NCBI RefSeq assembly: GCF_004526235.1
Contig: NZ_CP038159.1
Coordinates: 3,162,001-3,226,000 of the forward strand
Length of the DNA stretch: 64,000 nt
Direction: 5' to 3'
Origin: Sphingobacterium sp. CZ-2
Lineage (GTDB): Bacteria > Bacteroidota > Bacteroidia > Sphingobacteriales > Sphingobacteriaceae
The notes beneath the pieces are model-generated. The model was not told where the DNA came from, searched no databases, and worked only from the letters and a program-made list of their open reading frames with translations. Both the position numbers and the translations under genes were made by a program. The stretch's first letter is position 1; every line of letters begins with the position of its first letter. This document shows, piece after piece, positions 16,229-60,168 of the stretch.

Positions 16229-17608
16229 ATGTCTACATCATCATTGATTTCCCAAGATACCATCATCGCTTTAGCGACCTCCCCAGGTGCTAATGGAGCC
16301 ATTGCTGTCATCCGATTATCCGGTTCGGAAGCCATTTCTTTAGTCAATCAAGTTTTCAAAGGAAAAGATCTTTCCAAGCAAGCCTCCCATACCGTTCATT
16401 TTGGTACCATCCGCGATGGCGAACAAATCATTGATGAAGTATTGATCACATTATTTGTAGGTCCAAATTCCTATACCAAGGAAAATGTGGTAGAGATTTC
16501 AACCCACAACTCCAAATACATCATCGAACGAATTATCGGTCTTTTGATCAAAAAAGGTGCTCGTGCGGCTAAGGCTGGGGAGTTTACCTTACGTGCTTTC
16601 TTGAACGGCGGAATGGATCTTTCCCAAGCGGAAGCTGTGGCGGATCTGATTGCTTCCAACTCGGCGGCATCCCATCAGATTGCCATGCAACAGATGCGAG
16701 GTGGATTTTCCAACCAGTTGCAGAAGTTGCGGGAGGACCTGGTGCATTTTGCTTCCTTGATCGAATTGGAATTGGATTTTGCGGAGGAGGATGTGGAGTT
16801 TGCCAATCGGGAGCAGTTGCGATCTTTGATCCAGGAGATCCATCAGGTTATTTCCAAGTTGATCCGCTCTTTTGAGCAGGGAAATGTTTTGAAGAATGGA
16901 GTTCCTGTGGTGATTGCTGGTAAGCCGAATGTTGGGAAATCAACCTTGTTGAATGCTTTGTTGAATGAGGAGAGGGCGATAGTTTCGGATATTGCTGGAA
17001 CGACCAGGGATACCATTGAGGATGAGATCAATATTCATGGGGTTACTTTTCGGTTTATTGATACGGCGGGGATCCGGGATACGGAGGATGTGATTGAGGC
17101 GAAAGGTGTGGAGCGGACTCGGGAGAAAATGAAACAGGCGAGGTTGATTATCTATCTTTTTGATCCTACCCAGGATAATATAGCTGCGGTGCAGTCGCAG
17201 ATTGAGGAGGTGAGGTCTTTGAATATTCCTTTTGTGACGATTATTAATAAATCGGATTTGTTGTCGGAAGGGGAGAGAGGGGATTATGCTGTTCTGAACC
17301 CAATTTATATATCTGCGAAGCAGGGATTGGGGATTGAGGAATTGAAGGATGAGTTGTTGAACCAGGTTAATCTTTCGAATATTAATACGGAGGATGTGAT
17401 GGTGACTAATATTCGTCATGTGGAAGCTTTGCAACATACGCAGGAAGCTCTGGAAAAGGTGTTGTATGGGATTGATAATCCGATTACATCGGATTTTTTG
17501 GCGATGGATATTCGGCAGGCTCTGCAGTATTTGGGAGAGATAACTGGAACGGTTACTACGGATGATTTGCTGGAGAATATTTTTAGTAAGTTTTGTATCG
17601 GGAAGTAA
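16229..17608 (+). CDS. mnmE: tRNA uridine-5-carboxymethylaminomethyl(34) synthesis GTPase MnmE
   Basis: A 459-residue GTPase that, with MnmG, modifies the wobble uridine of several tRNAs. The N-terminal folate-binding domain starts with DTIIALATSPGANGAIAVIRLSG. The G domain has G1 GKPNVGKS at 231-238, G2 GTTRD, G3 DTAG and G4 NKSD, and the protein ends in FCIGK with the family's C-terminal Cys. Length and order are normal, so the gene is intact. Its last six codons, ending in the stop, are repeated 14 kb downstream. The 3' end of mnmE is a known integration site for genomic islands such as SGI1, and here it has evidently been used that way. Confidence 0.97.
   Translation: MSTSSLISQDTIIALATSPGANGAIAVIRLSGSEAISLVNQVFKGKDLSKQASHTVHFGTIRDGEQIIDEVLITLFVGPNSYTKENVVEISTHNSKYIIERIIGLLIKKGARAAKAGEFTLRAFLNGGMDLSQAEAVADLIASNSAASHQIAMQQMRGGFSNQLQKLREDLVHFASLIELELDFAEEDVEFANREQLRSLIQEIHQVISKLIRSFEQGNVLKNGVPVVIAGKPNVGKSTLLNALLNEERAIVSDIAGTTRDTIEDEINIHGVTFRFIDTAGIRDTEDVIEAKGVERTREKMKQARLIIYLFDPTQDNIAAVQSQIEEVRSLNIPFVTIINKSDLLSEGERGDYAVLNPIYISAKQGLGIEELKDELLNQVNLSNINTEDVMVTNIRHVEALQHTQEALEKVLYGIDNPITSDFLAMDIRQALQYLGEITGTVTTDDLLENIFSKFCIGK
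17591..17608 (+). other. Left attachment site (18-bp direct repeat, mnmE side)
   Basis: TTTTGTATCGGGAAGTAA is the last six codons of mnmE (Phe-Cys-Ile-Gly-Lys-stop). The identical 18 bases recur at 31547-31564 and the match stops exactly at these edges. Because the repeat restores the end of mnmE, the gene stays functional. Confidence 0.85.
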
Positions 17609-17711
17609 GGGAGTACCTAAAATTTTTATATTTAGAATATATTAATATATATTGAAAATAACCTTTTATTTCTTTAACCTTTCATCGATTTATAATTTAA
17701 TATCAATTCAT

Positions 17712-17727
17712 TTACGGTTTTCCGTAA
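17712..17727. promoter_or_regulatory. Palindrome TTACGG-N4-CCGTAA upstream of the hsd operon
   Basis: A perfect 6+6 inverted repeat, 67 bases before the hsdM start. The same arms and spacer length occur at 58830-58845 before the second defence locus. It fits the binding site of a dimeric regulator. A -7-like TAACTTTA lies at 17784-17791, just before the hsdM ATG. Confidence 0.55.
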
Positions 17728-17793
17728 GGAAAATTCTTTTTTAACTATTTAATTGCAGGTAAATCTGCGAAAAAAATATCACATAACTTTAAA

Positions 17794-20133
17794 ATGAACC
17801 ATTTATCTCATAATAAATTAGTTAGCTTTATCTGGTCTATTGCAGACGATTGCCTACGCGATGTCTATGTACGCGGTAAATACCGTGATATTATTTTGCC
17901 TTTTGTGGTTTTACGTCGTATAGACTCTTTATTGGAACCTACGAAAGATGCCGTATTGGAAGAAGTACGTTTTCAGAAAGAAGAATTAAATGCTGTCGAA
18001 GTAGACAGCAAAGGTTTACAAGATGCCTCGGAATATGTATTTTATAATACCTCTTCCTGGACAATGGAGAAGCTAAAAGGTACAGCTACGAACTCCCAAC
18101 AAAAATTAGTTGCCAACTTTGAAGAGTATTTGAATGGATTTTCTGCCAATGTGAAAGAGATTATTGAGAAATTCAATCTATCGGCACAAATCCGTCATAT
18201 GACATCCAAAGACGTTTTATTGGATGTTTTAGAAAAATTCACATCGCCATATATTAACCTGACTCCAGTGGAGAAAAATGACCCTGAGGGAAGACCATTG
18301 CCCGCACTTTCTAATTTAGGGATGGGCTATGTGTTCGAAGAACTGATTCGTAAATTCAACGAGGAGAATAATGAGGAAGCAGGGGAGCACTTCACACCAC
18401 GGGAGGTGATTCAGTTGATGACAACGTTGGTTTTTGAGCCGATTAAAGATCAATTACCTAATATTATTACCATCTATGACCCTGCGTGTGGTTCGGGTGG
18501 GATGTTGACCGAAAGTGAGAACTACCTTATCGAAGATGATAGTATTGCTTATAAAGGTGATGTCTATCTCTATGGTAAAGAGATAAACGACGAGACCTAT
18601 GCGATCTGTAAGTCGGATATGATGATTAAAGGTAAAGACCCCGAGAATATCCGTGTAGGTTCGACCTTGTCTACCAATGAGTTTTCGAGTATGAAATTTG
18701 ACTTTATGATGTCAAATCCGCCATATGGTAAATCCTGGGCATCGGAACAGAAATATATCAAAGACGGTAAGGATGTGATTGACAATCGATTCCAAATTAA
18801 ACTGAAAGACTATTGGGGCAATTGGGAAACCGTAGATGCAACACCGCGCTCTTCGGATGGACAATTGTTGTTCTTGATGGAAATGGTCGATAAAATGAAA
18901 GCTCCAACAGCCAACCGTGTCGGTTCGCGTATTGCATCGGTACATAATGGTTCGTCCTTATTTACGGGGGATGCAGGTTCGGGAGAAAGCAATATCCGTC
19001 GCTATATTATCGAAAATGATTTATTGGATGCAATTGTACAATTGCCTAATAACTTATTCTACAATACGGGGATTACGACCTATATCTGGTTGCTGAATAA
19101 CAATAAGCCCAAAGAAAGAGCAGGCAAAGTACAATTGTTGGATGCTAATAACTTGTACCGTAAACTGCGCAAGAATCTAGGAAACAAAAACTCCGAATTC
19201 TCTCCAGAGCAAATTGCACAGATAGCGCAAGCTTATTTGGAAGATTGGGAAACGAATCCTACGGATTCAGAACTAAAGGTCAAACAATTCCGAAATGCTG
19301 ATTTTGGGTATTACAAAGTCAATATCGAACGTCCAAAACGACTAAAAGCACAGTTTACTAAAGAAGCTTTGGACACACTTCGCTACGATAAGAGCTTGGC
19401 TACGACGATGCAAGCACTGTATGAGACCTATGGTGACTTGGTGTATGCTGGATTGGAATCTCATGCAGAAGAAATCACGAAACGTGCAGAAAAAGAAGAT
19501 TGGGGATTGAATAAAAAGCAAATAGCTAAGCTGCTGGAAAAAGCATCTTGGCAAAAGCCAAAAGCCTTATATGATGCTGCCTTAATCCTGTGGCAACATA
19601 TAGGAGATGATATCTTTATAGACTTTAATGCATTTAGCACCTTGGTGGATGAGCAAATCAAAAAGCATAAACTGGGTTTAGGTGCAGCAGAGAAAAAAGC
19701 TATACTACAGGCTATTAGCAGCTACGATGCAGAAGCCGAAAAAGTCATCAAAAAAATAGAAAAGCTGCAAGGTGATAAATTGCATCAATTACTGAATCAC
19801 TTAGGCTGTACCGAAGAGCAGTTGCCTTTATTTGGTTATTTCCCTACAGGAAAATCGGGCGAATACATCGTTTATGAAACGGAATCCGACCTACGTGATG
19901 CCGAGCAAATCCCATTAAATGAAACCATTGTAAACTATTTTGTACGTGAAGTGCAGCCTCATGTACCTGAAGCTTGGATTAACTTGGATTCTGTGAAGAT
20001 TGGCTATGAAATCTCGTTCAACAAGTATTTCTACCAGCATACGCCACTGCGATGTATCGCTGACATCAAAGTCGAATTGCTCCACTTAGAGCAACAAGCA
20101 GATGGTTTATTAGCAGATATCTTAAATTTCTAA
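17794..20133 (+). CDS. hsdM: Type I restriction-modification system methyltransferase subunit HsdM
   Basis: The N-terminal helical domain (LVSFIWSIADDCLRD onwards) is followed by the SAM-binding motif I DPACGSGGM at 229-237 and catalytic motif IV NPPYG at 308-312, the signature of N6-adenine methyltransferases. With two copies it joins HsdS to methylate host DNA and with HsdR to cut unmodified DNA. At 779 residues it is longer than the classic 500-530: about 250 extra residues, rich in charged helices, follow the methylase domain. Its stop and the hsdS start share TAATG, so translation is coupled. Base composition is closer to the chromosome than that of the genes inserted further down the operon. 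Confidence 0.95.
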   Translation: MNHLSHNKLVSFIWSIADDCLRDVYVRGKYRDIILPFVVLRRIDSLLEPTKDAVLEEVRFQKEELNAVEVDSKGLQDASEYVFYNTSSWTMEKLKGTATNSQQKLVANFEEYLNGFSANVKEIIEKFNLSAQIRHMTSKDVLLDVLEKFTSPYINLTPVEKNDPEGRPLPALSNLGMGYVFEELIRKFNEENNEEAGEHFTPREVIQLMTTLVFEPIKDQLPNIITIYDPACGSGGMLTESENYLIEDDSIAYKGDVYLYGKEINDETYAICKSDMMIKGKDPENIRVGSTLSTNEFSSMKFDFMMSNPPYGKSWASEQKYIKDGKDVIDNRFQIKLKDYWGNWETVDATPRSSDGQLLFLMEMVDKMKAPTANRVGSRIASVHNGSSLFTGDAGSGESNIRRYIIENDLLDAIVQLPNNLFYNTGITTYIWLLNNNKPKERAGKVQLLDANNLYRKLRKNLGNKNSEFSPEQIAQIAQAYLEDWETNPTDSELKVKQFRNADFGYYKVNIERPKRLKAQFTKEALDTLRYDKSLATTMQALYETYGDLVYAGLESHAEEITKRAEKEDWGLNKKQIAKLLEKASWQKPKALYDAALILWQHIGDDIFIDFNAFSTLVDEQIKKHKLGLGAAEKKAILQAISSYDAEAEKVIKKIEKLQGDKLHQLLNHLGCTEEQLPLFGYFPTGKSGEYIVYETESDLRDAEQIPLNETIVNYFVREVQPHVPEAWINLDSVKIGYEISFNKYFYQHTPLRCIADIKVELLHLEQQADGLLADILNF

Positions 20134-21431
20134 TGGCCATGAATATATACGAAGCATATAAAGATTCTGGTATTGATTGGTTGGGTGAAATTCCTAGCCA
20201 TTGGGAGGTGAAACCAGGTTTTACGGTTTTGAAAGAAAGGAAAGAGAAAAATAAAGGAATGATTTCTAGTAATGTTTTGTCTCTATCATATGGTAAAATA
20301 ATTGAAAAGCCTGTCGAAAAATTAACAGGATTAGTGCCTGAAAATTTTGAAACATACCAGCTTGTTTATGAAGGTGATATAATTTTTAGACCTACTGACT
20401 TACAAAATGATAAAGTAAGTTTAAGGACAGGATTATCCGGATTTAAGGGAATAATCACGAGTGCTTATATAAACTTACAGCCTATAAATAATTCTGTTTC
20501 AAAATTCATTCATTATTATTTACATACTACAGATACAAATAAAGTGATTTATGGTTTAGGATCAGGGTTGAGACAAAATATATCTTTTCTTGATTTTAAA
20601 AGATTTGCATTTGCACTTCCTCCCCTCCATGAACAAGAAGCAATAGCGCAGTTTTTGGATGAGAAATGTGCGAAAATAGATGATTTGGTAGCGATTAAAA
20701 ATCAACAAATTGAAAAACTTAAAGAACTGCGTCAAGTGAAAATACACCAAGCCGTAACCAAAGGTTTGGACACATCTGTGGAACTAAAAGATTCGGGTAT
20801 TGACTGGATTGGCGAAATTCCAAAGCATTGGGAGGTTACAAATTTCAAAAGAATATTGATTGGTATAAAAGATGGTACTCATGGTACACATCAAAGGGTC
20901 TCTAATGGAAACTTATTATTAAGTGCAAAAAATATTCATAATAATGGTATAAGAATATCAGGTGATGAAAGTATGATTCCTGATAAAGATTTTATTGAAA
21001 TAACGAAAAATGGTTATCCTAAGAAAAATGATTTATTAATAACCTGTGTAGGAACAATTGGACGTACTTATGTTTATGATTTGGATTATCCTATAGCATT
21101 TCAAAGAAGTGTAGCGTTTTTAAGGTTTAATTCAATAAAAGGTATTCCTAATTATTTTAAGTTTTATATAGAATCTCCTTATTATCAATTTATTTTATCC
21201 CAATTAACAAAAACAAGTGCTCAAGGTGGTGTTTATATGGGGGATATATTGAAAAGTACAATTATTCTTCCCCCTCTTTCCGAACAAGAAGAAATAGTTT
21301 CTTATTTAGAGCGAGAAACATTCAAAATAGATCAAGCTATTGCACAGCGTCAGGAGCAAATAGAAATGCTTAAAGCCTATAAGCAGAGCCTAATTAATGA
21401 GGTGGTAACAGGCAAGCTGAAAGTAGCGTAG
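20133..21431 (+). CDS. hsdS: Type I restriction-modification system specificity subunit HsdS
   Basis: A 432-residue protein built as two similar halves. Each begins with a DSGIDWLGEIPSHWEV-like motif (residues 9 and 218 onward), continues with a variable target-recognition domain and ends in a conserved helix (LPPLHEQEAIAQFLDEK and LPPLSEQEEIVSYLERE) with a coiled coil. The two recognition domains read the two halves of a split DNA target. The start overlaps hsdM by one base. No inverted copy or recombinase is present nearby, so phase variation of this subunit is not indicated. Confidence 0.95.
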   Translation: MAMNIYEAYKDSGIDWLGEIPSHWEVKPGFTVLKERKEKNKGMISSNVLSLSYGKIIEKPVEKLTGLVPENFETYQLVYEGDIIFRPTDLQNDKVSLRTGLSGFKGIITSAYINLQPINNSVSKFIHYYLHTTDTNKVIYGLGSGLRQNISFLDFKRFAFALPPLHEQEAIAQFLDEKCAKIDDLVAIKNQQIEKLKELRQVKIHQAVTKGLDTSVELKDSGIDWIGEIPKHWEVTNFKRILIGIKDGTHGTHQRVSNGNLLLSAKNIHNNGIRISGDESMIPDKDFIEITKNGYPKKNDLLITCVGTIGRTYVYDLDYPIAFQRSVAFLRFNSIKGIPNYFKFYIESPYYQFILSQLTKTSAQGGVYMGDILKSTIILPPLSEQEEIVSYLERETFKIDQAIAQRQEQIEMLKAYKQSLINEVVTGKLKVA

Positions 21432-21462
21432 GTAAGGGAGGCTATTAATTTATTAACCAATT

Positions 21463-22095
21463 ATGAACCTAAACCATTATAAAGCTTTAATACAAGCCAT
21501 GCCGGTATTAGATCAGGCCTTTGGAGTCAAAGCTATCAACTGGGAAAAGCAATTGCTACCCGAACATTTTAGTGCTATTTTCAAAGGAGAGGCTGAGGTT
21601 ATGCTCAGTCGTGAAGATATATTTTTAACCAATCGAATTGATCTATTTATTCTTAAAACCATATTATGGGGTTATCCCTCTGGTATGCGTGGAAATAATT
21701 TCTTATCTATTTATAGTCGATTAGAGGAAATAAGTTCAATATTAAATCTTCCAAATCGTATGCATTTAAATTTTGAAGATCTTCACACCTTACAAATTTC
21801 CTTACGATCATTTAAGGGATTAGGTTTATCCACCTATACTAAGCTATTACAATTAAGAGGTTTTCGTTTTAATGATATTTCAGCTTTGATTTTAGACGAA
21901 CGTATTATACGGGTATTCCAAAATAATATTTTCGAAGATTTTGAATGTCTGGCTAAAATTAGAGATTATAATAAGGAAAGATTTTATCCGGAATATTTGA
22001 AATGTATGCATGCTTGTGCTCAAGCATTAGAGACAAGTCCCGAACATCTGGAACTGTTTTTATTCACGTTTGGAAATAATTTGAAAAGTACCTAA
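21463..22095 (+). CDS. OGG-fold-like hypothetical protein inside the hsd operon
   Basis: A 210-residue protein without signal peptide or membrane segment. The stretch LILKTILWGYPSGMRGNN, followed by LGLSTYTKLLQLRGFRF and ALILDERIIRVF, resembles the helix-hairpin-helix region of bacterial 8-oxoguanine DNA glycosylase OGG-fold proteins, with a possible catalytic Lys in TYTKLL. I recognise this by pattern only. Such proteins are found in restriction and defence loci, so it may recognise modified or damaged bases in phage DNA (inference). It lies 31 bases after hsdS and 51 before the GHKL gene. Confidence 0.5.
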   Translation: MNLNHYKALIQAMPVLDQAFGVKAINWEKQLLPEHFSAIFKGEAEVMLSREDIFLTNRIDLFILKTILWGYPSGMRGNNFLSIYSRLEEISSILNLPNRMHLNFEDLHTLQISLRSFKGLGLSTYTKLLQLRGFRFNDISALILDERIIRVFQNNIFEDFECLAKIRDYNKERFYPEYLKCMHACAQALETSPEHLELFLFTFGNNLKST

Positions 22096-22146
22096 TCATA
22101 GAGCAATAAAATATTTATACTAAAAAAACTAATCAATTATTAAAAT

Positions 22147-25100
22147 ATGGAAATATTAGATTTAAATAGAAAAGCATTAATAGAAAGGACAGAAAGAGAA
22201 GATGAACGTTCGGATTTGAAGCAACACGCTGATAAAATGTTACGTGATTTTGAGAAATTTAACGATTTTTCTTCTAATCGTGCTATTTGGGAATTAGTTC
22301 AAAATGCTTGTGATTTAAGTCTTGAAGCAGATATTACTTTTGATTATAGAGATAATAAAATAGCCTTTTCTCATCATGGTAAACCTTTTGATACTAAATC
22401 ATTAATATCACTCATAAAACAAGTAAGTGGTAAATATGGCGAAAGTGAAGATATTCCTGAAGTTGGAAAATATGGTACTGGTTTTTTAACTACACATACT
22501 TTTGGTCGTAAATTTTTAATAAATTCTACACTTAAAGAAGGTGATTATTTTTTCAAAATTGAAAATTTCGAAATAGACAGGAGTCCTAAAACATGGCAAG
22601 ATTTAAGTGATAATATTTTTGATCAGAAAAAGGAAGTTTATAAATTACTTGAAAAAGGAGAAATCTTAACAGAAACAGATCTAGTTACAACATTTACATA
22701 CATACCCAATACGCCCAAAGAATTTGAGTATATAAACAAATCCTCTGAAGATTTAGATGCATATATACCTTATGTATTTACGATCAATGAGCGATTATAT
22801 AAAGTAACTATTATTGATAGGAATGGAAATTCTACATCCTATCAAAAAGTTAGTAAAACTGCTATTGATAATGATTGTGATATTAAATTGTTTAAAACGA
22901 CCATTCGTTCTAATAGTCAAGATCATATAATCTATAGTATTGTTGATGATGAATACGATATTGAGATAATACTTCCAATTGATGAAGAAAATAGAGTATA
23001 TAAAATTTCTGAGCGCATTACAAAGTTATTTTTATACTATCCATTAATTGGTTCTGAAAAATTTGGAATAAACTTTATAATTAATTCAAAACAATTTCTT
23101 CCCACCGAACCAAGAGATGGTATTCATTTGAAAAGCGATAAAGACCAAATTCAAGAACAAGAGGAAAATAATAGAAAAATTATTGAGAAGGCTACTTCCT
23201 TAGTTTTTGAATTTTTAAATAGTTCCATAATAGAAGTCGATAATCCTTTATTATATGCCGCAGTAAAGTTTGTAACTAATTCTGATAATCAATTGCAAAA
23301 TGAATATTTTGAAAATCTGCAATCCGAATGGAATTATGAGTTAAAGAAGCTACCTTTTGTAAAGACAAAAAATGGTTTCAAAGATATTGATGAAGTGAAA
23401 TATTTATCATCAGATTTTATAACGGATGATGAAGATTTATTTAAGGTTTTTTATGATTTATTGGACAAATTTTTCGGTGACGAATTACCTGTTATAGAAG
23501 ATATTAAAACATGGAGTGAAAATGCGCAAGATTGGAATGACGATTCTATCGAATTTATCAATCATGCTATTTTATTGGAAGAAATTCAAAATTATAAACT
23601 AGATGATTTTGATATAAATAATTTAATTACTTACTATAAATATCTTATTGAGAATGGTAAATCCAATGTGTTTAACGAGTATACATTAATACCAAATTTG
23701 GATGGAGAATTTAATAAAATAGGACATCTTCTCGTAGCGGATAATCTTACTAATGATCTTATTTCTTTAGGACGAATTTTGATTAATTCTCAGATGAAAA
23801 AGATTATTGACAGTCGATTTATTTTTGATTTTGATTTAGATAAGTTCAATAGAAGAGATTTTACTAATGAAATCAAGAATGAGATAGATAATCTTGATTT
23901 AGAAGATAAGGTGTTTTTTAATTCTGCAATTAACTTGAACAATACTCATCAAAACTTATTTAATAGGTCTGAAGAAATTGATGAAGAATATTATGTAGCC
24001 TTAATTGAGGTTTGTAAATACACAAGTAATGTAAATTCTTCAAGTAAACCTAATAAGATGGTAAAGGAAATCTGTATATTTTATGGATTAGATTCAGAAT
24101 TGAAGAATATTAATACATTAGATGTAGAAAATGAGAATTTAGATTTAAGAATAATTCGTAAAACTGTAATTAGAGTTTTCTTTAATACAATATCATTACA
24201 TAAAGAAAATTGGGTGCAAGAGAACTTAAATTTAGTAGGAGTTATTTTAAATTTGTGGGAGGATAGTTATAAAGAATTATATAATGATTGTAAGATTTAT
24301 CCAAATCAATTATTTGAATTATGTAAAGCTGAAAGTTTAAAAAGAGATGAAGATATTTTAGAAAATATAAAAACTTATTATAATGAAATAACGAATGAGC
24401 AGATTGAAGCGAAGCTAATTATTAAAGATTTTAATGATCTTCTACCAAAAGAGGAATTTATAAATAGTCAATATCTTGCAAACAAAATTCAAGAATTAAT
24501 TTTTAATGACGACTTCACTGATTACGAAAATCATCCTCATAAAGAGTTAATTTTAAAAATAATTCCTCTTCTGAATGATAAGGTTTATCAGATTTTGTTT
24601 CAAACTCTTGATAGTAAAAAGGCTAGTATTATGATCAACCTTATTACTAATGAGGAAAAAAAAGAAGATATATTTTCCATTGTTTCCCTACATGAAGATA
24701 AACTTAAAAAAATAGGAAAACTTATTAAGAAAGATAATTTTGAACAAATTCTAAATATAGCTGAATCTCTTGCTATAGAGGAGCAGAATCAGAAAGCAAA
24801 TTTTGAACATAAATATAAAATTGGAACATATATAGAGGATAAAATTAGACAGAAGTTAAATGATGAATTAAAATCTCATATAACTATTGATACTATCGAG
24901 GCAGAAAATGTTCAGGGAGGACAAGATATTGTTGTTAAACTAAATGATATACCTATTCATTATATAGAAGTGAAATCAAGATGGGCTAGCAATTCTTCTG
25001 TAATGATGAGTAAATTACAACTAGAAAGAGCCGCATTAAATAAGGATATATATACACTTTGCTCAGTAGATGTAACGAATTATAATGGAGGCAACGATAA

Positions 25101-25332
25101 GTATGAACTACTTATTGAAGAAATAATACCATTAACAAAATGTGTTAATAACATAGGTGAAAATATTGAACCACTTGTAAAAAGGAATTTAGATGCAGAA
25201 AAGAGAATTGATGATGATATTCATTTAATAGAATACAAAGGTATTGTTCCTCAAAATATCATAAAATCTGGTGAATCATTGGATGATTGTATAAATAAAC
25301 TTGTGAGTAAAATTCAAGAATTAGACAAATAA
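22147..25332 (+). CDS. GHKL ATPase (sacsin-type N-terminus) with C-terminal DUF3883 nuclease-like domain
   Basis: A 1061-residue protein. The N-terminus is an Hsp90/sacsin-like ATPase: N box ELVQNACD at 49-56, HHGKPFD as the G1 region and GKYGTGFLTTH as the G2 loop. A long helical middle follows. The C-terminus has DIVVKLND then HYIEVKSRW, the D...ExK core of a PD-(D/E)xK-like DUF3883 domain. This suggests an ATP-driven sensor tied to a DNA or RNA nuclease; mechanism unknown. The stop overlaps the hsdR start in TAATG, so it is built into the restriction operon. It is visibly more AT-rich (mostly AAT, ATT, GAA codons) than hsdM and hsdR, suggesting a separate origin and insertion between hsdS and hsdR. 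Confidence 0.8.
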   Translation: MEILDLNRKALIERTEREDERSDLKQHADKMLRDFEKFNDFSSNRAIWELVQNACDLSLEADITFDYRDNKIAFSHHGKPFDTKSLISLIKQVSGKYGESEDIPEVGKYGTGFLTTHTFGRKFLINSTLKEGDYFFKIENFEIDRSPKTWQDLSDNIFDQKKEVYKLLEKGEILTETDLVTTFTYIPNTPKEFEYINKSSEDLDAYIPYVFTINERLYKVTIIDRNGNSTSYQKVSKTAIDNDCDIKLFKTTIRSNSQDHIIYSIVDDEYDIEIILPIDEENRVYKISERITKLFLYYPLIGSEKFGINFIINSKQFLPTEPRDGIHLKSDKDQIQEQEENNRKIIEKATSLVFEFLNSSIIEVDNPLLYAAVKFVTNSDNQLQNEYFENLQSEWNYELKKLPFVKTKNGFKDIDEVKYLSSDFITDDEDLFKVFYDLLDKFFGDELPVIEDIKTWSENAQDWNDDSIEFINHAILLEEIQNYKLDDFDINNLITYYKYLIENGKSNVFNEYTLIPNLDGEFNKIGHLLVADNLTNDLISLGRILINSQMKKIIDSRFIFDFDLDKFNRRDFTNEIKNEIDNLDLEDKVFFNSAINLNNTHQNLFNRSEEIDEEYYVALIEVCKYTSNVNSSSKPNKMVKEICIFYGLDSELKNINTLDVENENLDLRIIRKTVIRVFFNTISLHKENWVQENLNLVGVILNLWEDSYKELYNDCKIYPNQLFELCKAESLKRDEDILENIKTYYNEITNEQIEAKLIIKDFNDLLPKEEFINSQYLANKIQELIFNDDFTDYENHPHKELILKIIPLLNDKVYQILFQTLDSKKASIMINLITNEEKKEDIFSIVSLHEDKLKKIGKLIKKDNFEQILNIAESLAIEEQNQKANFEHKYKIGTYIEDKIRQKLNDELKSHITIDTIEAENVQGGQDIVVKLNDIPIHYIEVKSRWASNSSVMMSKLQLERAALNKDIYTLCSVDVTNYNGGNDKYELLIEEIIPLTKCVNNIGENIEPLVKRNLDAEKRIDDDIHLIEYKGIVPQNIIKSGESLDDCINKLVSKIQELDK

Positions 25333-28300
25333 TGACCACAAAATATAACGAACAAGCTTTAGAATCATTGATTGAAAAGCATTTAACAGGATATTCCATT
25401 GAAGAACTTAATGATAAATCATTGTCAGTGGGCTCCTTTTATGAGTCGGAAGACAGTTACCTAAGTGGCAAAGGTTATTTTATTGGCTCGCCATTGGATT
25501 TCGATAAACGCTATGCTTTAGATACTAAAAGATTTTGGGATTTTTTAGAAAAAACACAAGCCAAAGAATTAGCCAAACTACAAGTAAGCTCTGACTGGAA
25601 GTTAAAGATTCTAGAGAGGTTTGATCGTAAGGTCAAAAAAGATGGTATTCTTAAGCTTTTGAAAAAAGGTTTAGAGGTAGATAATGCTTACTTTACCCTA
25701 TTTTATGAGGCTCCAAGTGCGAGTTCAGCACAGTCTATTCGCGACAACTTTGAAGCAAATCAGTTTTCAATCACCAGACAAGTTCGTTATTCTTTAGTTA
25801 ATACTGGGGAAGAGATTGATATGGTTTTATTTGTCAATGGTATTCCTTTAGCTACAATTGAATTAAAAAATCCCTGGACAGGACAAACAGCTGCTGTACA
25901 GGGAATAAAGCAATACAAGTATACTCGTGATGCTTCACAATCTCTATTGCAGTTTGGTCGTTGCCTCGTACACTTTGCTGTAGATACAGACGAGATATAT
26001 ATGACGACTAAATTACAAGGCAAGGATACTTTCTTTTTACCTTTTAACAAGGGAGATAATTTTGGAAAAGGTAATCCTATCAATCCAAATGGTCATAAGA
26101 CAGCTTATCTATGGGAGGATATTTTTAAAAAGGAGAAGCTAGCTCAAATTATTCAACACTATATGTTGTTGGAAGGCAAGGATAAAGAACCTCTGAGTAA
26201 GAAGTTTTATATTTTCCCTAGATATCATCAATTGGATGTGGTTAGCAAATTGATAAGTGATGTACAGGAAAAAGGAGTAGGTGAAACCTATTTGATACAG
26301 CACTCAGCTGGCTCTGGAAAATCTAATTCTATTACTTGGACAGCTTTTCAATTGATTGAAGTAGAAGATAGTGTAGGAAACCCCATGTTTGATTCGGTCA
26401 TCGTGGTGACAGACAGAAGAATCTTAGACCGACAATTACGCGAGAATATTAAGTCATTTTCGGATGTAAAGAATATTGTAGCTCCCGCTTATTCTTCTGC
26501 CGATTTAAAGCAATCTTTGGAGTCAGGTAAACGTATTATCGTAACTACGATTCAGAAGTTTCCACATATATTGGACGGAATTGATTCCATGGTGGATAAG
26601 CGATTTGGTATAATTATCGATGAAGCGCATTCGAGTCAAGGAGGTTCTGCTGCTGATAAGATGAACCAAGTTTTGGGGGCATTAGAGTCAAACGAAGAAG
26701 GTGATGTGGATGCGCAAGACCTAATTATTCGTGCTATGCAGGCACGTAAAATGCGTAAGAATGCTTCTTATTTTGCCTTTACAGCTACACCAAAGAATTC
26801 TACTTTGGAGCGTTTTGGCAGTAAGCAGGAGGATGGTAGCTATAAACCATTCCATTTGTATTCTATGAAGCAAGCTATTGAGGAAGGTTTTATTTTAGAC
26901 GTTATATCAAATTATACTACTTATAAAAGTTATTACCAGCTACACAAGTCTATTGAAGATAATCCTGAATTTAATACCAAGAAAGCTCAGCGAAAATTAA
27001 AAGGATTTGTTGAAAAAGATCCTCGCACAATCCGAGCTAAAGCGCAAATTATGCTTGAACATTTTATGGAACAGGTTTTTTACAAGAAAACTGTTCTGAA
27101 TAATAAAGCTAAGGCAATGGTGGTAACACAAAGTATCGAATCCGCTATACGATACTATAAAACACTAAATGAGTTACTCGCTGAAAAGGGTTTTCCCTTT
27201 AAAAGCATTATTGCATTCTCGGGAGCTAAAACGGTAGATGGTATTGAATATACTGAAGCGACTATGAATGGTTTTCCAGATTCGGATACTAAGGATGAAT
27301 TTGATAAGGACGAATATCGTATGCTGGTAGTCGCGAATAAATACTTAACTGGATTTGACCAGCCCAAGCTAACCACTATGTATGTGGATAAGAAATTGCA
27401 AGGTGTATTGTGTGTACAAGCTTTGTCACGACTTAATCGTTCAGCACCAAAGTTGGGTAAAAAGACAGAGAATTTATTTGTATTGGATTTCTTTAATGAT
27501 AGTGCCGATATTAAGGCCTCCTTTGATCCATTCTATACTTCGACGACACTCAGTACAGAAACTGATGTAAACGTATTACACGATTTAAAAGACGCTTTGG
27601 ATGATAAAGGTATTTATGAATGGGGAGAAGTGGAAGATTTTAACACGAAGTTCTTTAAGGGTGTTTCAGCAGAGGATTTAAGTCCAATCATTGATACTGC
27701 TGCACAACGTTTTAATAGTGATTTGGATTTTAACGAAGAAGAAAAGGCTGATATTAAGATCAAGGCTAAACACTTCGTGAAAGTATATGGTCAATTGGCA
27801 GCTATTATCTCTTTCGAAAATATGAATTGGGAGAAGCTATTTTGGTTTCTAAAATTCCTTATCCCCAAAATGAAAGTCAAACAGCGAGAAGAAGATTTGT
27901 TGGATGAACTCCTAGAGTCAGTTGATTTATCAACTTATGGTATCGAACGTGTACGTTTGAATGAAAAATTGAGTTTGGATGATAGTGAATCTGAATTAGA
28001 TCCAAATAATGCGAATCCACGAGGTGCACATGATCCAGGAGAAAAAGCAGAATTGGATAGTATCATTCGTGAATTTAATGAACGTTGGTTTGCCAATTGG
28101 GATGCTACACCAGATGATAAACGTTTATTCTTTCAAACTTTCGTAGAGAAGATACAACAACATCCTGACTATGAATCTAAATACTTAAATAATCACGATC
28201 ATTATACTCGTGATATAGCTTACAATAAGATCTTAGATCAAGTAGCTCTTCAAATGCGTAAAGTGCAATTGGACTTTGCTAAGCAATGGCTAGATGAGCA

Positions 28301-28349
28301 TTTCAAACAGGATTTTAAATCGAGTACACAACGAGCATTGGGGAGGTAA
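25332..28349 (+). CDS. hsdR: Type I restriction endonuclease subunit HsdR
   Basis: At 1005 residues it has the normal HsdR layout. The nuclease core shows EIDMVLFVNG with Glu177-Leu-Lys179 (IELKNPW). The translocase has Walker A HSAGSGKS at 324-331, DEAH at 430-433 and the motif III FTATP, followed by the helicase C half (ALSRLNRSAP as motif VI). It moves DNA through the complex using ATP and cuts far from the unmodified recognition site. The ATG overlaps the upstream GHKL/DUF3883 stop. Six bases separate it from the next gene, an AAA ATPase. Confidence 0.96.
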   Translation: MTTKYNEQALESLIEKHLTGYSIEELNDKSLSVGSFYESEDSYLSGKGYFIGSPLDFDKRYALDTKRFWDFLEKTQAKELAKLQVSSDWKLKILERFDRKVKKDGILKLLKKGLEVDNAYFTLFYEAPSASSAQSIRDNFEANQFSITRQVRYSLVNTGEEIDMVLFVNGIPLATIELKNPWTGQTAAVQGIKQYKYTRDASQSLLQFGRCLVHFAVDTDEIYMTTKLQGKDTFFLPFNKGDNFGKGNPINPNGHKTAYLWEDIFKKEKLAQIIQHYMLLEGKDKEPLSKKFYIFPRYHQLDVVSKLISDVQEKGVGETYLIQHSAGSGKSNSITWTAFQLIEVEDSVGNPMFDSVIVVTDRRILDRQLRENIKSFSDVKNIVAPAYSSADLKQSLESGKRIIVTTIQKFPHILDGIDSMVDKRFGIIIDEAHSSQGGSAADKMNQVLGALESNEEGDVDAQDLIIRAMQARKMRKNASYFAFTATPKNSTLERFGSKQEDGSYKPFHLYSMKQAIEEGFILDVISNYTTYKSYYQLHKSIEDNPEFNTKKAQRKLKGFVEKDPRTIRAKAQIMLEHFMEQVFYKKTVLNNKAKAMVVTQSIESAIRYYKTLNELLAEKGFPFKSIIAFSGAKTVDGIEYTEATMNGFPDSDTKDEFDKDEYRMLVVANKYLTGFDQPKLTTMYVDKKLQGVLCVQALSRLNRSAPKLGKKTENLFVLDFFNDSADIKASFDPFYTSTTLSTETDVNVLHDLKDALDDKGIYEWGEVEDFNTKFFKGVSAEDLSPIIDTAAQRFNSDLDFNEEEKADIKIKAKHFVKVYGQLAAIISFENMNWEKLFWFLKFLIPKMKVKQREEDLLDELLESVDLSTYGIERVRLNEKLSLDDSESELDPNNANPRGAHDPGEKAELDSIIREFNERWFANWDATPDDKRLFFQTFVEKIQQHPDYESKYLNNHDHYTRDIAYNKILDQVALQMRKVQLDFAKQWLDEHFKQDFKSSTQRALGR

Positions 28350-28355
28350 GGGGAA

Positions 28356-30224
28356 ATGTTAGCTGCAATTATCATTTATAGAAATAGTTATCCGTATTTA
28401 TTTGGTGAAGATCATGAGGATATAACAATTAATTTTGGCGGAAAATATCTTTATGATGGCCGTTATAATGTTCAATCACATAAGCCAGAAGTTACAAAAG
28501 TTTTAAATCAGTCATATATAGAACCAATAATTAGTAAGTTTGATCAAAGTAAAAGTAATCTATCGGCAATTTCCTGCATCGTAGGAAATAATGGAACAGG
28601 TAAATCTACACTTCTAAAGGATATATTACTTGATTGGAGATTTTTTTTCATCTTAGAAGATGGGGATGATTATGAAATTTTAGATTTGTCAGAACAATCA
28701 AATTATTATGATAAAAAAGTAATATTTCCTTACCATAGAGTTTATTACTCTCCTATAATGAATTATGAGAAACAAGATGGGCTTGGTAAAAATTCAGTTG
28801 ATTGGTCAGTATCAATGCAATTTGTAAATGATAACCATGGAGATTCTGAGCAATTAGAATATTTCATAGATAGATATCAATCTGAAAAGTTTAAGAGATG
28901 GATTTTATTTAATAAATTCTATAATGAATTAAAAATTGATATAGTATCATTCCCTTTTTTTTCAAAAGTCAAAGTTGATTTAGGACGTTTTGAATATACA
29001 AGTTTTAAAACCAATTATCATAATACACCTTATCAATTTAGAGAGGTTTTCGATTTACTTTTTCAGAAAATTAAAATTGAAGAAAAAAGTATTTATACTA
29101 CATATCGTGAAAAAGGAAAAAATATGTCTGATATAGATAATAATAGGGTTAAATTTGAATATCATTTTTATGAGGATATTTTAGGAAAAATTATCACATG
29201 CCTTGAATATATAGGTAATAGATTTTTAAATGAAGGATTTGTTCCTAATGACGTTGTACAAAGCATAAAGGAAAAAAAGTTTACGGATGCGCTTTTCTTT
29301 TTTCTTGAAAAGTCTTATTTATATGAAGGGAATGAAAAATATTACTTCGATGATTTAAATAATAATTTAAGAGAGTTGTTAAATTATTTTGTTCCATTGA
29401 TTAAGAGAGGTGATATATCAAAGGATGATTGTACTGAAATGTATCTAACATATGATGAAGCTTATAAGTTAATTGAATATTATGAAATATTTAATAATTC
29501 TTTTTTAAAGCAACCATTTGAATATAATAGTAATCCTCTGTTCATTTTTTCACCCAATATAAATTTAAGTACAGGGGAACAAGGGATTCTTAACTTATTT
29601 AGTACGCTCTATCATCATGCCTACTGTTTGAAAAATAAAATAAATTCTTATGATTTTCATTCTTCTGAACCTTTTAAATATGTGAACAATAAGATATTAT
29701 TACTGTTGGACGAGGGAGATATGGGATTTCATCCATTATGGAAAAAGAAATATGTGTTATTTCTTAGGATAATGGCTCCAATTATTTATAAAGGATATGA
29801 AGTCCAGATAATTTTATCTACACATGATCCAATAATTTTATCGGATTTTCCTAAGAATAATGTTGTGTATTTAACAAAGAGAAATAATAATACTGTATTA
29901 ATTAATTCCAATGATAAAAAGTCATTTGCTGCCAATGTAAGCGATTTGTTATCAGATTCTTTTTTTATTGACAATGGACTAATAGGAGACTGGGCAAATT
30001 TTTCAATAACTAAATTTATTGATATACTGAAAGAAAAGCAATTGAATTCTATTGACATCACTGATGATGAAGTTATAATGTTCTTAAAAGCAATTGATGA
30101 GCCCATAGTAAAATTTAAACTAGCTGAAATGTATTCCAATTATTCAAAGATTAAGAATGTTGAATTGCAATTAATTGATCACGAAATTCAACAATTGGTA
30201 GCTAGAAGAAAGGAGCTTGAATAA
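28356..30224 (+). CDS. Septu-like (PtuA-type) ABC/SMC-family ATPase
   Basis: A 622-residue ATPase. Walker A GNNGTGKST lies at 77-85; then comes a long helical insertion; the ABC-type signature NLSTGEQGIL near 405; Walker B LLLLDEGDMGFHP with Asp452-Glu453; and an H-loop His490 (LSTHDP). This order is shared by PtuA of the Septu system, retron-linked ATPases and RloC-like proteins. The next gene, beginning directly after the stop, is an HNH nuclease, the usual Septu partner. It is AT-rich like the GHKL gene. I call it Septu-like by architecture; a different ATPase/HNH defence family is possible. Confidence 0.65.
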   Translation: MLAAIIIYRNSYPYLFGEDHEDITINFGGKYLYDGRYNVQSHKPEVTKVLNQSYIEPIISKFDQSKSNLSAISCIVGNNGTGKSTLLKDILLDWRFFFILEDGDDYEILDLSEQSNYYDKKVIFPYHRVYYSPIMNYEKQDGLGKNSVDWSVSMQFVNDNHGDSEQLEYFIDRYQSEKFKRWILFNKFYNELKIDIVSFPFFSKVKVDLGRFEYTSFKTNYHNTPYQFREVFDLLFQKIKIEEKSIYTTYREKGKNMSDIDNNRVKFEYHFYEDILGKIITCLEYIGNRFLNEGFVPNDVVQSIKEKKFTDALFFFLEKSYLYEGNEKYYFDDLNNNLRELLNYFVPLIKRGDISKDDCTEMYLTYDEAYKLIEYYEIFNNSFLKQPFEYNSNPLFIFSPNINLSTGEQGILNLFSTLYHHAYCLKNKINSYDFHSSEPFKYVNNKILLLLDEGDMGFHPLWKKKYVLFLRIMAPIIYKGYEVQIILSTHDPIILSDFPKNNVVYLTKRNNNTVLINSNDKKSFAANVSDLLSDSFFIDNGLIGDWANFSITKFIDILKEKQLNSIDITDDEVIMFLKAIDEPIVKFKLAEMYSNYSKIKNVELQLIDHEIQQLVARRKELE

Positions 30225-31238
30225 ATGTTTTATTTAGATATAAATAGTCCTAGAATTCAGCATGCACTTAATGAACATTATATTCATTGTCGGTACGTGA
30301 TAAAAAGAAGGTTATTAGGTGATGCTTTTAAAGAAAATCCTCCTTTTTTACAAAAGTCAGCAGTTAACAAAATAAGTATTAATAAGAGTGTTTTTAATTT
30401 TTTTAATGATGATAAAAACATAAGGTTGGTATTAACCGGGAAACCAATAGAATTAGATAAAATTAAGTCTAAATTTTATAAAAATAAGAATGATTTGGAT
30501 CGACTTTTAAATTATACTTATTTCAATGTTAAAGGAAAATATGATACAAAAAATATTTCTAAAGAATTTGTTGATAGATATAGTTCATTTCATCTGACTA
30601 ATAATTTAGGTATTAAAACATGCATTTATTGTAATAGAAATTATACGGATACCATTACAAGCGGTGTTAGAATAAACAAATTTAAAAATAAGAAAATTCC
30701 TACTCGCTTATTAATATCAAGACCAACATTAGATCATTGGTTTCCTAAATCTGAGTATCCAATTTTAGCCATTTCGTTTTTTAATTTAATTCCGACATGC
30801 TCAACTTGTAATAGTTCGGTTAAAGGAAAATCGTCTTTAAATTTAGTTAATCATTTTCATCCATATTTTAAAAATCCTAATGTAGATAGACAGCTGAATT
30901 ATCAGTTTAATTTTAATTTAGATGATCCAAATAAGGCAAATATAATAATTGATTCCAAGAATGACTTCACTAGGTCATCAATAAGAGAATATTCAATAGA
31001 TAAATTGTATTCAAATCATAACGATGAATTGCAAAGTTTGATGAAATTGAAGAAACACTTTGGAAGATCATACTTAAATAATTTGTCTAATATTTTGGAG
31101 GATACAGATATTACAGCCAATGAAATGCAAAGAATTATATTTGGATATTCAACAGATAACACTGAAGATATTTTAAAAAGACCATTAAGTAAATTTAGAA
31201 GTGATATTTTGAAAAAATTAGGAATATTTACAAAATAA
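30225..31238 (+). CDS. Septu-like (PtuB-type) HNH endonuclease
   Basis: A 337-residue protein with a zinc-bound HNH core: C133-x2-C136 (CIYCNRNYTD), the catalytic LDHWFPKSEYP with Asp170-His171, then NLIPTCSTCNSS with C192-x2-C195. The N- and C-terminal parts are basic and AT-rich in coding. It begins immediately after the ATPase stop (TAA-ATG) with no gap. In Septu the ATPase controls the HNH subunit, which degrades DNA after phage sensing; that role is assigned by analogy. It is the last gene before the right attachment repeat. Confidence 0.7.
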   Translation: MFYLDINSPRIQHALNEHYIHCRYVIKRRLLGDAFKENPPFLQKSAVNKISINKSVFNFFNDDKNIRLVLTGKPIELDKIKSKFYKNKNDLDRLLNYTYFNVKGKYDTKNISKEFVDRYSSFHLTNNLGIKTCIYCNRNYTDTITSGVRINKFKNKKIPTRLLISRPTLDHWFPKSEYPILAISFFNLIPTCSTCNSSVKGKSSLNLVNHFHPYFKNPNVDRQLNYQFNFNLDDPNKANIIIDSKNDFTRSSIREYSIDKLYSNHNDELQSLMKLKKHFGRSYLNNLSNILEDTDITANEMQRIIFGYSTDNTEDILKRPLSKFRSDILKKLGIFTK

Positions 31239-31546
31239 ATATTATGAATAATTTAAAACGTTATTATTAATCAATCTGAGGTAAATACTTTAGTAGGATT
31301 ATATAAATAAATTAAGAAGATGTTTTATGAATATACTCTACATTAACCAAATTTCAGCTGTGTTATAGATGTTCAAGTAAATATCAAATTTTCATCAAAT
31401 GATGTTGCTGTGCGATAGCTTAGTATTTAGATTTATTGTAATAGGGCATAATATAAGAAACGACTTATCAGACAATAAAATGTTACAATATTAATTTTAT
31501 TTGTATTTATTTTAAAATAAAATACTGGTAATCAAATAGTAGTACT
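31239..31546. other. Non-coding right end of the island
   Basis: AT-rich sequence with no open frame of convincing quality. A near-palindrome GTATTTATTTT with AAAATAAAATAC at 31503-31525 lies 22 bases inside the right repeat. No integrase remnant could be read in any frame. Confidence 0.5.
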
Positions 31547-31564
31547 TTTTGTATCGGGAAGTAA
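31547..31564 (+). other. Right attachment site (18-bp direct repeat)
   Basis: TTTTGTATCGGGAAGTAA, identical to the mnmE end at 17591-17608. The preceding bases differ (T instead of G) and so do the following bases (C instead of G), so the identity is exactly 18 bases. Confidence 0.85.
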
Positions 31565-31705
31565 CTGCGTGAACTAGAATTAACAAAACTGTACATACTT
31601 TTTACGAAATCACATGAGAATTCCTGTCGCATGATTTTTAGGGCATCATACAAGGTATTATAACAGGTCTTGACGGAATCGTCATGTTCTTCCAAAAATC
31701 TTTAA

Positions 31706-32096: not shown

Positions 32097-33187
32097 CTAT
32101 TGATAACATGCCGCCGGCAGGGCATCGTATTCCATTGGTGTCTTTCCTCCCAATGACTCATGTGGTCTTTTGTAGTTGTAATCCTGAATCCATTCTTCTG
32201 CAAGTATCTGTACTTGCTGTGTATCTTCAAAGAGGTAGGCATCCAGGATACTTTCCCGAAATGTGCGGTTGAAACGTTCAATGTAACCGTTTTGCATCGG
32301 CCTGCCTGGTTGAATGTACTGTATCTCTATTTCTTTGCCAGCACACCAATCTCGAAATTCCCTACTGATAAATTCAGGGCCGTTATCCGTACGGAAACGT
32401 GAAGGTTTTCCCTGCGCTTTTATGATGCGATCCAATAGATAGGTTACGTTGTTTGCTGGAATACTGTGTGTAACTTCAATAGCGATGGCCCGCCTGTTAA
32501 AGTCATCAATGATGTTCAGGGTCCTGAACTTGCGCTTATTGGTCAGTACGTCGCTCATAAAGTCCAGAGACCATGTTTTAAGCGGCCTTTCTGGAATCGA
32601 TAACGGTTGCTTTACCCGGGCTGGAAGTCGTCTCCTGGTCTTTCTGCGACGGTTCATCCCCAAGAGTTGATACACCCTGCGGATTCGTTTGTAGTTCCAC
32701 TTCAGTCCCTCATGTCGAATACGTGAATAGTAAAGGTCCTGTCCTTCGGTTGGATACCGATCGGCCAGCTCTCGGAGCTTCGCTATCGTTTCGCTGTCGT
32801 CCTTCCTGTTCCTGTAATAATACATCGACTTCGGCAGGTTGACAACCTTGCAGGCCCTGCTGATGCTGATCTGGTGCATAGAAATAACATAAGCAGCCAT
32901 ATCCTTGCGCTGGCAGGGCCTTAGAACTTTTTTGATAGTACGTCCTTGAGGATCTTGTGGTCCAGGGCGAGGTCCGCATACATCTGCTTGAGACGGCGGT
33001 TCTCTTCCTCCAGTTCCTTCATACGGCGCAGCTCTTGGCTGTCCATCCCGGAATACTTCTTCTTCCAAGTGTAAAAGGTTGCTTGGTGGACACCCAACTC
33101 CCTGCAGATGTCCGAAGTGCTTTTACCCGATTCATGTTGCTTGATCGCAGAAACAATCTGGCTCTCGCTGATTCTTGTCTTTTTCAT
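32097..33187 (-). CDS. IS3-family transposase OrfAB (by -1 frameshift)
   Basis: The full transposase is made when ribosomes slip back one base at AAAAAAG (minus strand, 32933-32927), joining orfA to orfB. The orfB part has an HTH_21-like region (YYYRNRKDDSETIAKLREL) and an rve/DDE integrase core with the acidic residues in WSLDFMSD, RFRTDNGPEF and GYIERFNRTF. The product cuts and joins IS ends. The orfB frame stays open to 32097, so the element looks intact and possibly active. An internal ATG at 32900 could give OrfB alone. Confidence 0.9.
32921..33187 (-). CDS. IS3-family transposase OrfA (HTH protein)
   Basis: An 88-residue protein with a helix-turn-helix (QIVSAIKQHESGKSTSDICR to ATFYTWKKKY) and a C-terminal leucine-zipper-like helix (LEEENRRLKQMYADLALD). 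It binds IS ends and regulates transposition in this family. Its last codons, SKKF then stop, lie on the slippery site used to make OrfAB. Confidence 0.9.
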   Translation of the reverse strand: MKKTRISESQIVSAIKQHESGKSTSDICRELGVHQATFYTWKKKYSGMDSQELRRMKELEEENRRLKQMYADLALDHKILKDVLSKKF

Positions 33188-55516: not shown

Positions 55517-56002
55517 TTAAGAGGAATACAACTTCCTCGTCTCCACATAGAGATCGATCTGGTTCAATACCTGCTCCAGGTTCTGCAGCACCTCCTTGCT
55601 CCAGAACCTGAATACCACATAGCCCATGTTCCGAAGGGCCTGATTGACCCGTTCATCCTTCTGCATGTTCCTTTCGATCTTCGGGATCCAAAAATCGCGG
55701 TTCGATTTGATCCTTTCCCGGTTTACCTTCCAATCCTGCCCATGCCAGAATTCCCCATCGATAAAAATGGCCAATCGGTATTTTTTGATCAGGATGTCCG
55801 GCCTTCCTGGCATTCTGCTGTCATGGATCCGGAAGCGGTAGTTCTTTGCCCATAAAGCCTTCCGCAACATAACCTCCGGTTTGGAGTTCTTTCCCCTGAT
55901 CTTGGACATGGTCTTGCTGCGCTGGGGCGTGGTATAAAACCCAGCGGATTCCTCAAATCGAGGAACCTTTATCCGATCCTGTTCATCATCATAGGAGTGC
56001 AT
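55517..56002 (-). CDS. vsr: Very short patch repair endonuclease (Vsr)
   Basis: A 161-residue Vsr-type nuclease. MSKIRGKNSKPEVMLRKAL is the standard start of the domain; Asp69 (PGRPDILIKK), DGEFWHG with His87 and the C-terminal GYVVFRFWSKEV complete it. It nicks DNA next to T-G mismatches that arise when 5-methylcytosine deaminates. No cytosine methyltransferase lies in the window, so either a partner is elsewhere or this is a lone copy. A pseudo-free 20-residue extension precedes the domain. Confidence 0.92.
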   Translation of the reverse strand: MHSYDDEQDRIKVPRFEESAGFYTTPQRSKTMSKIRGKNSKPEVMLRKALWAKNYRFRIHDSRMPGRPDILIKKYRLAIFIDGEFWHGQDWKVNRERIKSNRDFWIPKIERNMQKDERVNQALRNMGYVVFRFWSKEVLQNLEQVLNQIDLYVETRKLYSS

Positions 56003-56231
56003 TTCTCAAAATTAAGAATTTTTGCTTGCTTAATCGTTAACCCTCTCTGTTAAGCACAATTTTATCGAATTTCAATACTCGCCCTACCTAAGGGCTAATT
56101 TATTGTAGATGGATTTCTATAATTATTAGAATAATATCCTAATAAGATATAAATATGTATGTATTCACACTAAATTCACGTTAAATTCATTTTATTTTAA
56201 CAAATGGGATATAATTTGCATAAAAGTAAAT

Positions 56232-56275
56232 AATCCAAAGTTTGGATTAGGCGCTTGATTAGGATTTGCGTCCTA
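56232..56275. promoter_or_regulatory. Two palindromes upstream of the tail-anchored protein gene
   Basis: AATCCAAA-G-TTTGGATT at 56232-56248 and TAGGA-N6-TCCTA at 56260-56275 lie 42-85 bases before the next start, in a 314-base gap otherwise AT-rich. The first is a perfect 8+8 inverted repeat and could be an operator. Confidence 0.4.
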
Positions 56276-56316
56276 CCTATGTAAACTATCTTAAAACAGT
56301 ATAATATTTTATTTAC

Positions 56317-57651: not shown

Positions 57652-57919
57652 ATGGAAGGGCTTTTTCGGTAGATCATTTTCTTAACGGGTATTATCCATT
57701 TTCTGCAGGTGGTTTAGGACTTGAAGGTTCAATATATGTTTGAATTTGGGGTGAAATCGCTGTTTAAGTATGTTTAAACCGAGGTGAAAGTAGGTAAAAA
57801 GTATGCAAAGCATAGGTTTTACATATTTTTACATTACTTTCAGTATGGTTTGGCGGCGAAGGCAACTTGGACTTATAGAAGGGAAGACAACCCATAATTA
57901 TAATGATGTATTCTTGAAA

Positions 57920-58714: not shown

Positions 58715-58829
58715 TATAAATCAAAATATGCAAAAAAACCTTTATTCTTACAAGAACTGTATGATAGGACCTTTAGATAGTTTGATATTCAAGTTTTGAA
58801 TCAAATTAGAATATAAAATCTAAATCTTA

Positions 58830-60160: not shown

Positions 60161-60168
60161 GATTTTAT

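Follow-up and report, generated by a model that had tools for sequence, protein, structure and literature searches.

A probable integrase-less defence cargo unit at the 3' end of mnmE in Sphingobacterium sp. CZ-2, a site used by Bacteroidota integrases

Introduction

How did an island of defence genes come to lie against the 3' end of mnmE, bounded by a perfect repeat of the last bases of this gene, when no gene for its own integration is recognisable in it? The question is raised by a window of Sphingobacterium sp. CZ-2 DNA (the whole analysed stretch of 64,000 nucleotides), taken from a genome, here G000, that consists of one contig of 3,925,976 bases. A preliminary description of the window had proposed a defence island inserted at the 3' end of mnmE with both attachment sites preserved, following the target logic of SGI1 and served by one integrase type that works across phyla. 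Here, we examine the repeat, the cargo, the corresponding loci in the genus and the integrases of the phylum.

Results

Repeat and cargo of the island

The terminus of mnmE, TTTTGTATCGGGAAGTAA, has a second exact copy downstream (Table 1). The bases adjoining the two copies differ on both sides, so the identity ends at 18, exactly as the preliminary description had placed it. Only these two sites are present in the window at up to three mismatches, compared with 0.13 expected, and two such sites were reached in one of 100 shuffles of the window. The degenerate form TTYTGYATCGGNAARTAA matches exactly at these two positions and nowhere else in the whole of G000, in agreement with the expectation that the 18-mer is not frequent elsewhere. 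A chance origin of the repeat was rejected because of the shuffles, the genome-wide uniqueness and the strand bias of second cores in the genus described below. The G+C content is 0.45–0.46 in the 3 kb before position 17000 and 0.25–0.41 inside the island. These data support an insertion at the 3' end of mnmE that preserved both cores. They also support the SGI1-like target logic, with the trmE (mnmE) 3' end and 18-base repeats both present here.

Table 1 Features of the mnmE locus in the window
Feature	Position	Strand	Remark
mnmE, tRNA modification GTPase; 3' end is the target site	16229..17608	+	ORF of 459 aa
Left core, attL copy, codes for F-C-I-G-K-stop	17591..17608	+	exact 18-mer
Left end, 185 bp, mnmE end to hsdM	17609..17793	.	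without integrase relic or known left arm
hsdM, type I methyltransferase	17794..20133	+	PADLOC, Pfam
hsdS, type I specificity subunit	20133..21431	+	PADLOC, Pfam
OGG-like DNA glycosylase family protein	21463..22095	+	PF21790; no PADLOC match
TmtA (PADLOC name)	22147..25332	+	PDLC03967, E = 1.3e-286
hsdR, type I restriction subunit	25332..28349	+	PADLOC, Pfam
AAA ATPase, candidate defence protein PDC-M62A, Septu-like	28356..30224	+	PADLOC 4.7e-61, Pfam
Candidate defence protein PDC-M62B, HNH-type partner	30225..31238	+	PADLOC E = 2.6e-41; no Pfam match
Right arm, AT-rich, overlapping inverted repeats	31459..31546	+	conserved in relatives, ends at core
Right core, attR copy	31547..31564	+	exact 18-mer
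Chromosomal flank right of island	31565..31700	.	aligns with flanks in G064 and G081

Seven ORFs were assigned with PADLOC and Pfam: HsdM, HsdS, an OGG-like protein, TmtA, which we take to be the Tiamat defence protein, HsdR, and a pair of an AAA and an HNH-type protein. That the island holds only defence-type genes was nearly right, as it applies to six of the seven ORFs, the exception being the OGG-like one. For the pair at 28356–31238 the Septu models are far behind in PADLOC (PtuA 2.3e-14, PtuB 1.9e-7) and the best models are PDC-M62A and PDC-M62B instead of PtuA and PtuB, therefore the pair is named only Septu-like; the second protein is called HNH-type because of its likeness to PtuB-type models.

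No recombinase or transfer gene was detected by PADLOC and Pfam among the seven ORFs. A tblastn search of the window with 13 mnmE-site integrases gave a best E-value of 0.13, outside the island, by which an integrase relic in the 185 bp of the left end was ruled out. This left end matches no left end of another element beyond 21 bases; its first 7 bases weakly resemble the left end in G081. Plasmid relatives of the island were not matched by megablast. About 0.5 kb to the right of the right core lies a two-ORF pair (32097–33187, minus strand) that is presumably a transposase with an IS3-family look. Further ORFs, by eye, presumably resemble a Vsr-type endonuclease (55517–56002, minus strand) and a phospholipase-D-like protein (60169–62259, plus strand), and a further defence cluster is possible at 55517–62259.

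Docking at mnmE in the genus Sphingobacterium

Relatives of mnmE are present in one copy in 92 of 93 Sphingobacterium genomes (G102 gave no match), and in these 92 the DNA 3' of the gene was read, over at least 20 kb in most and less at contig ends. Directly after mnmE, 15 of the 92 loci contain a near-full or full tyrosine integrase frame, in one case (G101) cut by its contig end. All 15 belong to one integrase family with 361–416 codons and start 62–831 bases after the first base of the mnmE tail; three tested members contain the Pfam domains Arm-DNA-bind_5 (in one just under the cut-off), Phage_int_SAM_5 and Phage_integrase. A frameshift interrupts the mnmE-site integrase of G053, that of G045 is divided between two contigs, and only part of it is present in G011. 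A 16-base core pattern was found in 13 second copies on the plus strand and in none on the reverse strand, with 0.03 expected per strand in the 1.93 Mb of the 92 loci.

Occupied and empty sites were compared at their joins. In G014 the flank after an island of 45.8 kb is identical in 279 of 293 positions to the sequence joined to mnmE in G085, and in G003, where 49.7 kb are occupied and an extra core copy lies at 31.9 kb, the flank beyond is the one directly after mnmE in G022, G041 and G071. The flank of the window aligns with the flank behind a 4.2 kb island in G064 (64/92, score 30.7, shuffled maximum 15.8) and with that in G081 (38/47). Its alignment to G061, which has a similar flank joined to mnmE, lies at the limit of chance (24/30, score 16, shuffled maximum 15.1), and the flanks of G064 and G061 align with a score of 24. 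The empty sites that had been predicted in relatives were thus found for G014 and G003, but for the window's own flank the candidate lies at the limit of chance. The same repeats enclosing other cargo, likewise predicted, were found in G064, G100 and others. Judged from these genome comparisons, the mnmE 3' end is a real docking site in Sphingobacterium.

Crossover within the 18 bases

Among 12 genomes tabulated with two core copies, the right copy begins with TTTTGTATC in nine and with TTTTGTATT in three, while the first 9 bases of the left copy are more variable than those of the right copy. The last 9 bases differ between left and right copies in nine of the 12. The clearest case is G014, in which the right copy has the tail GGCAAGTAA, the same as in the empty relative G085, and the left copy has the tail GGAAAATAA. 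The comparison shows an exchange of half-cores in these genomes, by which the element replaces the final codons and the stop of mnmE while the protein end stays the same. In the window, both halves of the two cores are identical and the crossover position is therefore not visible. In G003, G019 and G070 the second core possibly belongs to the left end of another element. At G014:C10:844629 (minus strand), CTAAG stands before the right core just as it does in the coding sequence of mnmE, as though the 45.8 kb island had taken along slightly more of the mnmE end.

The exchange resembles the split reported for SGI1, where, according to the accessible part of PMC9035990, the last 9 bases of attL come from the element and those of attR from the host; the 18-bp repeats of SGI1 are described in the accessible part of PMC12217951.

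A right arm common to islands with and without integrase

The approximately 90 bases before the right core of the window recur, ending at the core, in G063, G064, G067, G048, G050, G100 and G062. Over 99 bp, the arm shares 86% identity with its counterpart in G063, an integrase-bearing element of 26.7 kb with a Gabija pair and a type III methyltransferase as cargo. No integrase is present in the islands of G064 (4.2 kb, with a PDC-M62-type pair as its only two larger ORFs), G067 (6.5 kb; SIR2-HerA), G048 (18.5 kb; BrxC, PglX and PglZ), G050 (19.2 kb; type I R-M, Abi-type and HipA genes) and G100 (4.4 kb; AbiH). The cargo scan covered four of nine larger ORFs in G048, three of eight in G023 and none in G093, G072, G019 and G014.

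BLAST with the arm of the window against 93 genomes gave 22 matches at E ≤ 0.001. Nine of the 12 matches with E < 1e-7 lie 3' of mnmE on its contig, and the other three (G010, G047, G074) are on other contigs of draft genomes; the ten weaker matches are short and AT-rich, one at mnmE (G070) and nine not. The genus-wide arm search scored no more than nine candidates per genome, and weak arms were seen only by nhmmer. With gaps counted, the mean identity among eight arms is 73% (58–84), compared with 50% each for the 90 bases inside and the 90 bases outside; the 3' end of the mnmE coding sequence reaches 75%. The arm is more identical than its inner neighbour in 27 of 28 pairs, than its outer neighbour in 27 of 28 and than mnmE in 13 of 28. 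Due to the near equality with mnmE, the conservation seen in this comparison is claimed only as constraint or recent transfer. The mnmE tail is lost from the right core in G048, G050, G062 and G067, where the arm ends in TTTTTGTATCG and GAA-type sequence then replaces the tail.

An integrase of the mnmE family was not found genome-wide at E ≤ 1e-45 in 11 genomes with a second core or arm (G000, G014, G019, G023, G048, G050, G064, G067, G072, G093 and G100), a negative that concerns this integrase family only, as other recombinase types are possible in G014, G019, G023, G072 and G093. The lack of a cognate integrase in G000 and the ten others is what one would see if a deletion from just after mnmE had removed the integrase half and had left the right core and arm as functionless relics. 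The missing left arm of the window and the damaged integrases of G053, G045 and G011 also fit such decay. Relics of this kind sit poorly with an arm whose conservation equals that of the mnmE coding end, with the sequences on either side at the 50% baseline, and which recurs beside quite different cargo. We give this explanation somewhat less than an even chance.

A homologous hsd unit in tandem

G062 and G083 carry an R-M unit homologous to that of the window behind an integrase-bearing element. The identities to the window in G062 and G083, respectively, are 89 and 86% for HsdM, 91 and 89% for HsdR and only 36 and 37% for HsdS. A core copy precedes hsdM by 415 bp in G062 and by about 240 bp in G083; in the window the mnmE end precedes it by 185 bp. 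The hsd unit of G062 closes with the same right arm as the window, whereas no right arm was found in the 59.7 kb of G083. In its interior, G062 has RhuM, GmrSD and KAP-type genes compared with OGG, TmtA and the ATPase/HNH pair of the window. Any element that docks before older cargo should leave an internal core, and the tandem state seen in this comparison therefore does not by itself prove a left end of the hsd unit's own.

The front element of G062 (L048:537-17493) encodes two HTH_17 proteins, an AAA_25 ATPase, a DUF6371 protein, a weak RuvC match and an HK97-gp10-like protein. One of its ORFs matches a phage tail-component family and no relaxase was found among the ORFs scanned, so we call the element only integrase-bearing. 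Its classification as an integrative mobilisable element was rejected on the same grounds; a phage satellite is perhaps more likely than a conjugative element.

Genomes with a common mnmE and right arm but different cargo could also result from homologous recombination between these conserved flanks, swapping defence cassettes with no integrase involved for the unit of the window. Such swapping does not predict the half-exchange within 18 bases in other genomes, the internal cores in G062, G083 and G003 or the precise joins of empty and occupied sites, and we consider it improbable.

Integrases of Bacteroidota at the mnmE 3' end

The phylum was searched with an alignment of seven mnmE-site integrases, and the best 80 genome loci of a longer list were analysed. 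All of these 80 are Bacteroidota in the tree, with members across the phylum, and in 68 the mnmE end lies directly upstream on the same strand at a distance of 195–1157 bp. Among the other 12, L169 and L207 have less than 1 kb of upstream sequence, and L198, L200, L206, L208, L212 and L214 form a supported subclade without mnmE within 4 kb upstream, in which the target has perhaps changed. Nine of the 12 loci without mnmE were checked for tRNA genes: eight, including the six of the subclade, have none, and L213 has one tRNA-Tyr about 3.4 kb before the integrase. Loci from the viral collection include mnmE in 7 of 80. On these alignments, the integrases that serve the 3' end of mnmE in Bacteroidota form a separate clade.

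The 13 PF00589 matches elsewhere in G000 would allow a resident recombinase of another kind to move the island still. The match nearest to the mnmE-type integrases is only 26% identical and has an internal stop, and the 12 recombinases placed in the tree are all outside the mnmE-integrase clade (support 81/95), on long branches, which makes this explanation quite improbable. Tyrosine-type searches of the whole genome, leaving serine recombinases out, revealed no mnmE-type integrase in G000; a trans-acting integrase elsewhere in G000 was ruled out since none is close to the mnmE type.

An SGI1-type integrase common to several phyla would share with the island the target gene end, the 18-base repeat and the 9+9 split, as far as the accessible parts of PMC9035990 and PMC12217951 describe them. 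In our tree, which was built without the SGI1 integrase, the Bacteroidota integrases at mnmE form one clade, and SGI1 backbone genes matched none of the seven island ORFs; placement by such an enzyme is hardly credible. The earlier idea of one integrase type across phyla is not supported: no integrase is encoded in the island, and those of Bacteroidota at this site group in a clade of their own. We infer instead that the conserved F-C-I-G-K-stop codons may let unrelated integrases converge on the mnmE end.

Discussion

We propose, with a probability of roughly 0.7, that the island of the window is an integrase-less cargo unit at the mnmE docking site, comparable to a cis-mobilisable element. 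A Bacteroidota tyrosine integrase would recombine the core of an element with the last 18 bases of mnmE. The crossover would fall near the middle of the core, giving a left copy with the first half of the host and the last 9 bases and stop of the element, and a right copy with the first half of the element and the last half of the host. New elements would dock again at the mnmE core and shift older cargo downstream, and units lacking the integrase half would stay behind as defence cargo, flanked by two cores and retaining the right arm. The window would present such a unit alone beside mnmE; in G062 and G083 a homologous unit follows an element that carries an integrase. A newly arriving element of that type could insert ahead of the unit, and both could then excise together.

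This reading is based on the two cores being the only ones in G000, the strand bias, the integrase frames after mnmE and the empty/occupied pairs, together with the right arm on islands with and without integrase, the tandem core before hsdM and the lack of an integrase in the island and of an mnmE-type integrase in G000. Against it stand the chance-edge site in G061, the lost mnmE tails in G062, G067, G048 and G050, the missing right arm of G083 and the HsdS identity of only 36–37% to G062 and G083. Since the window has no recognisable left arm, the data agree equally with a deletion that began at mnmE and with a unit that has its own left end. The unit of the window was presumably once part of an integrase-bearing element and may be open to mobilisation. 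That mnmE is a phylum-wide dock of Bacteroidota with dedicated integrases, where defence genes would largely be integrase-less one-arm units carried in cis, is a broader hypothesis that we hold to be possible, but rather doubtful.

An 18-base core plus one arm would be a possible, modular route for the spread of defence genes without a mobility gene. The dock, mnmE, is present in nearly all bacteria, and its 3' end is used in Bacteroidota by a separate integrase clade. If cis-mobilisation is true, surveys that demand an integrase inside mobile defence islands overlook such units. Our literature search, with most subscription journals and all preprints outside its range, returned no report of the mnmE site in Bacteroidota, which is weak evidence of novelty; the two trmE entries in the accessible part of PMC5704250 are SGI1 and a Vibrio island.

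Among known systems, the closest are cis-mobilisable elements (CIMEs), whose definition and tandem accretion are given in the accessible part of PMC5704250. Like these, the island of the window has no integration or transfer genes, has a core at each end and is related to integrase-bearing elements at the same site (by the arm of G063 and the hsd unit of G062 and G083). The tandem of G062 and G083, in which the hsd unit follows an element with an integrase, corresponds to the arrangement described there. The island of the window differs in that no left arm is recognisable beside the two cores and the right arm; moreover, the front element of G062, without relaxase in the scanned ORFs, may be phage-like.

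The SGI1 family also resides at the 3' end of trmE (mnmE, thdF) with 18-base repeats, and other islands at this end contain restriction and methylase genes and tandems, as the accessible parts of PMC9035990 and PMC12217951 report; in contrast, the seven ORFs of the island in the window include no SGI1-type integrase or backbone genes. The islands and prophages at dusA resemble the present case in having an integrase family devoted to a tRNA-modification gene, and one island there carries a type I R-M system, but they use the 5' end of another gene and were studied in Acinetobacter and Pseudomonas (accessible part of PMC4482086; compare PMC8409611).

In conclusion, site-specific trmE islands, R-M cargo at this site, tandem arrays and CIMEs are already in print, while a Bacteroidota integrase clade of its own at mnmE and defence units that recur there without integrase and with one kept arm are unusual.
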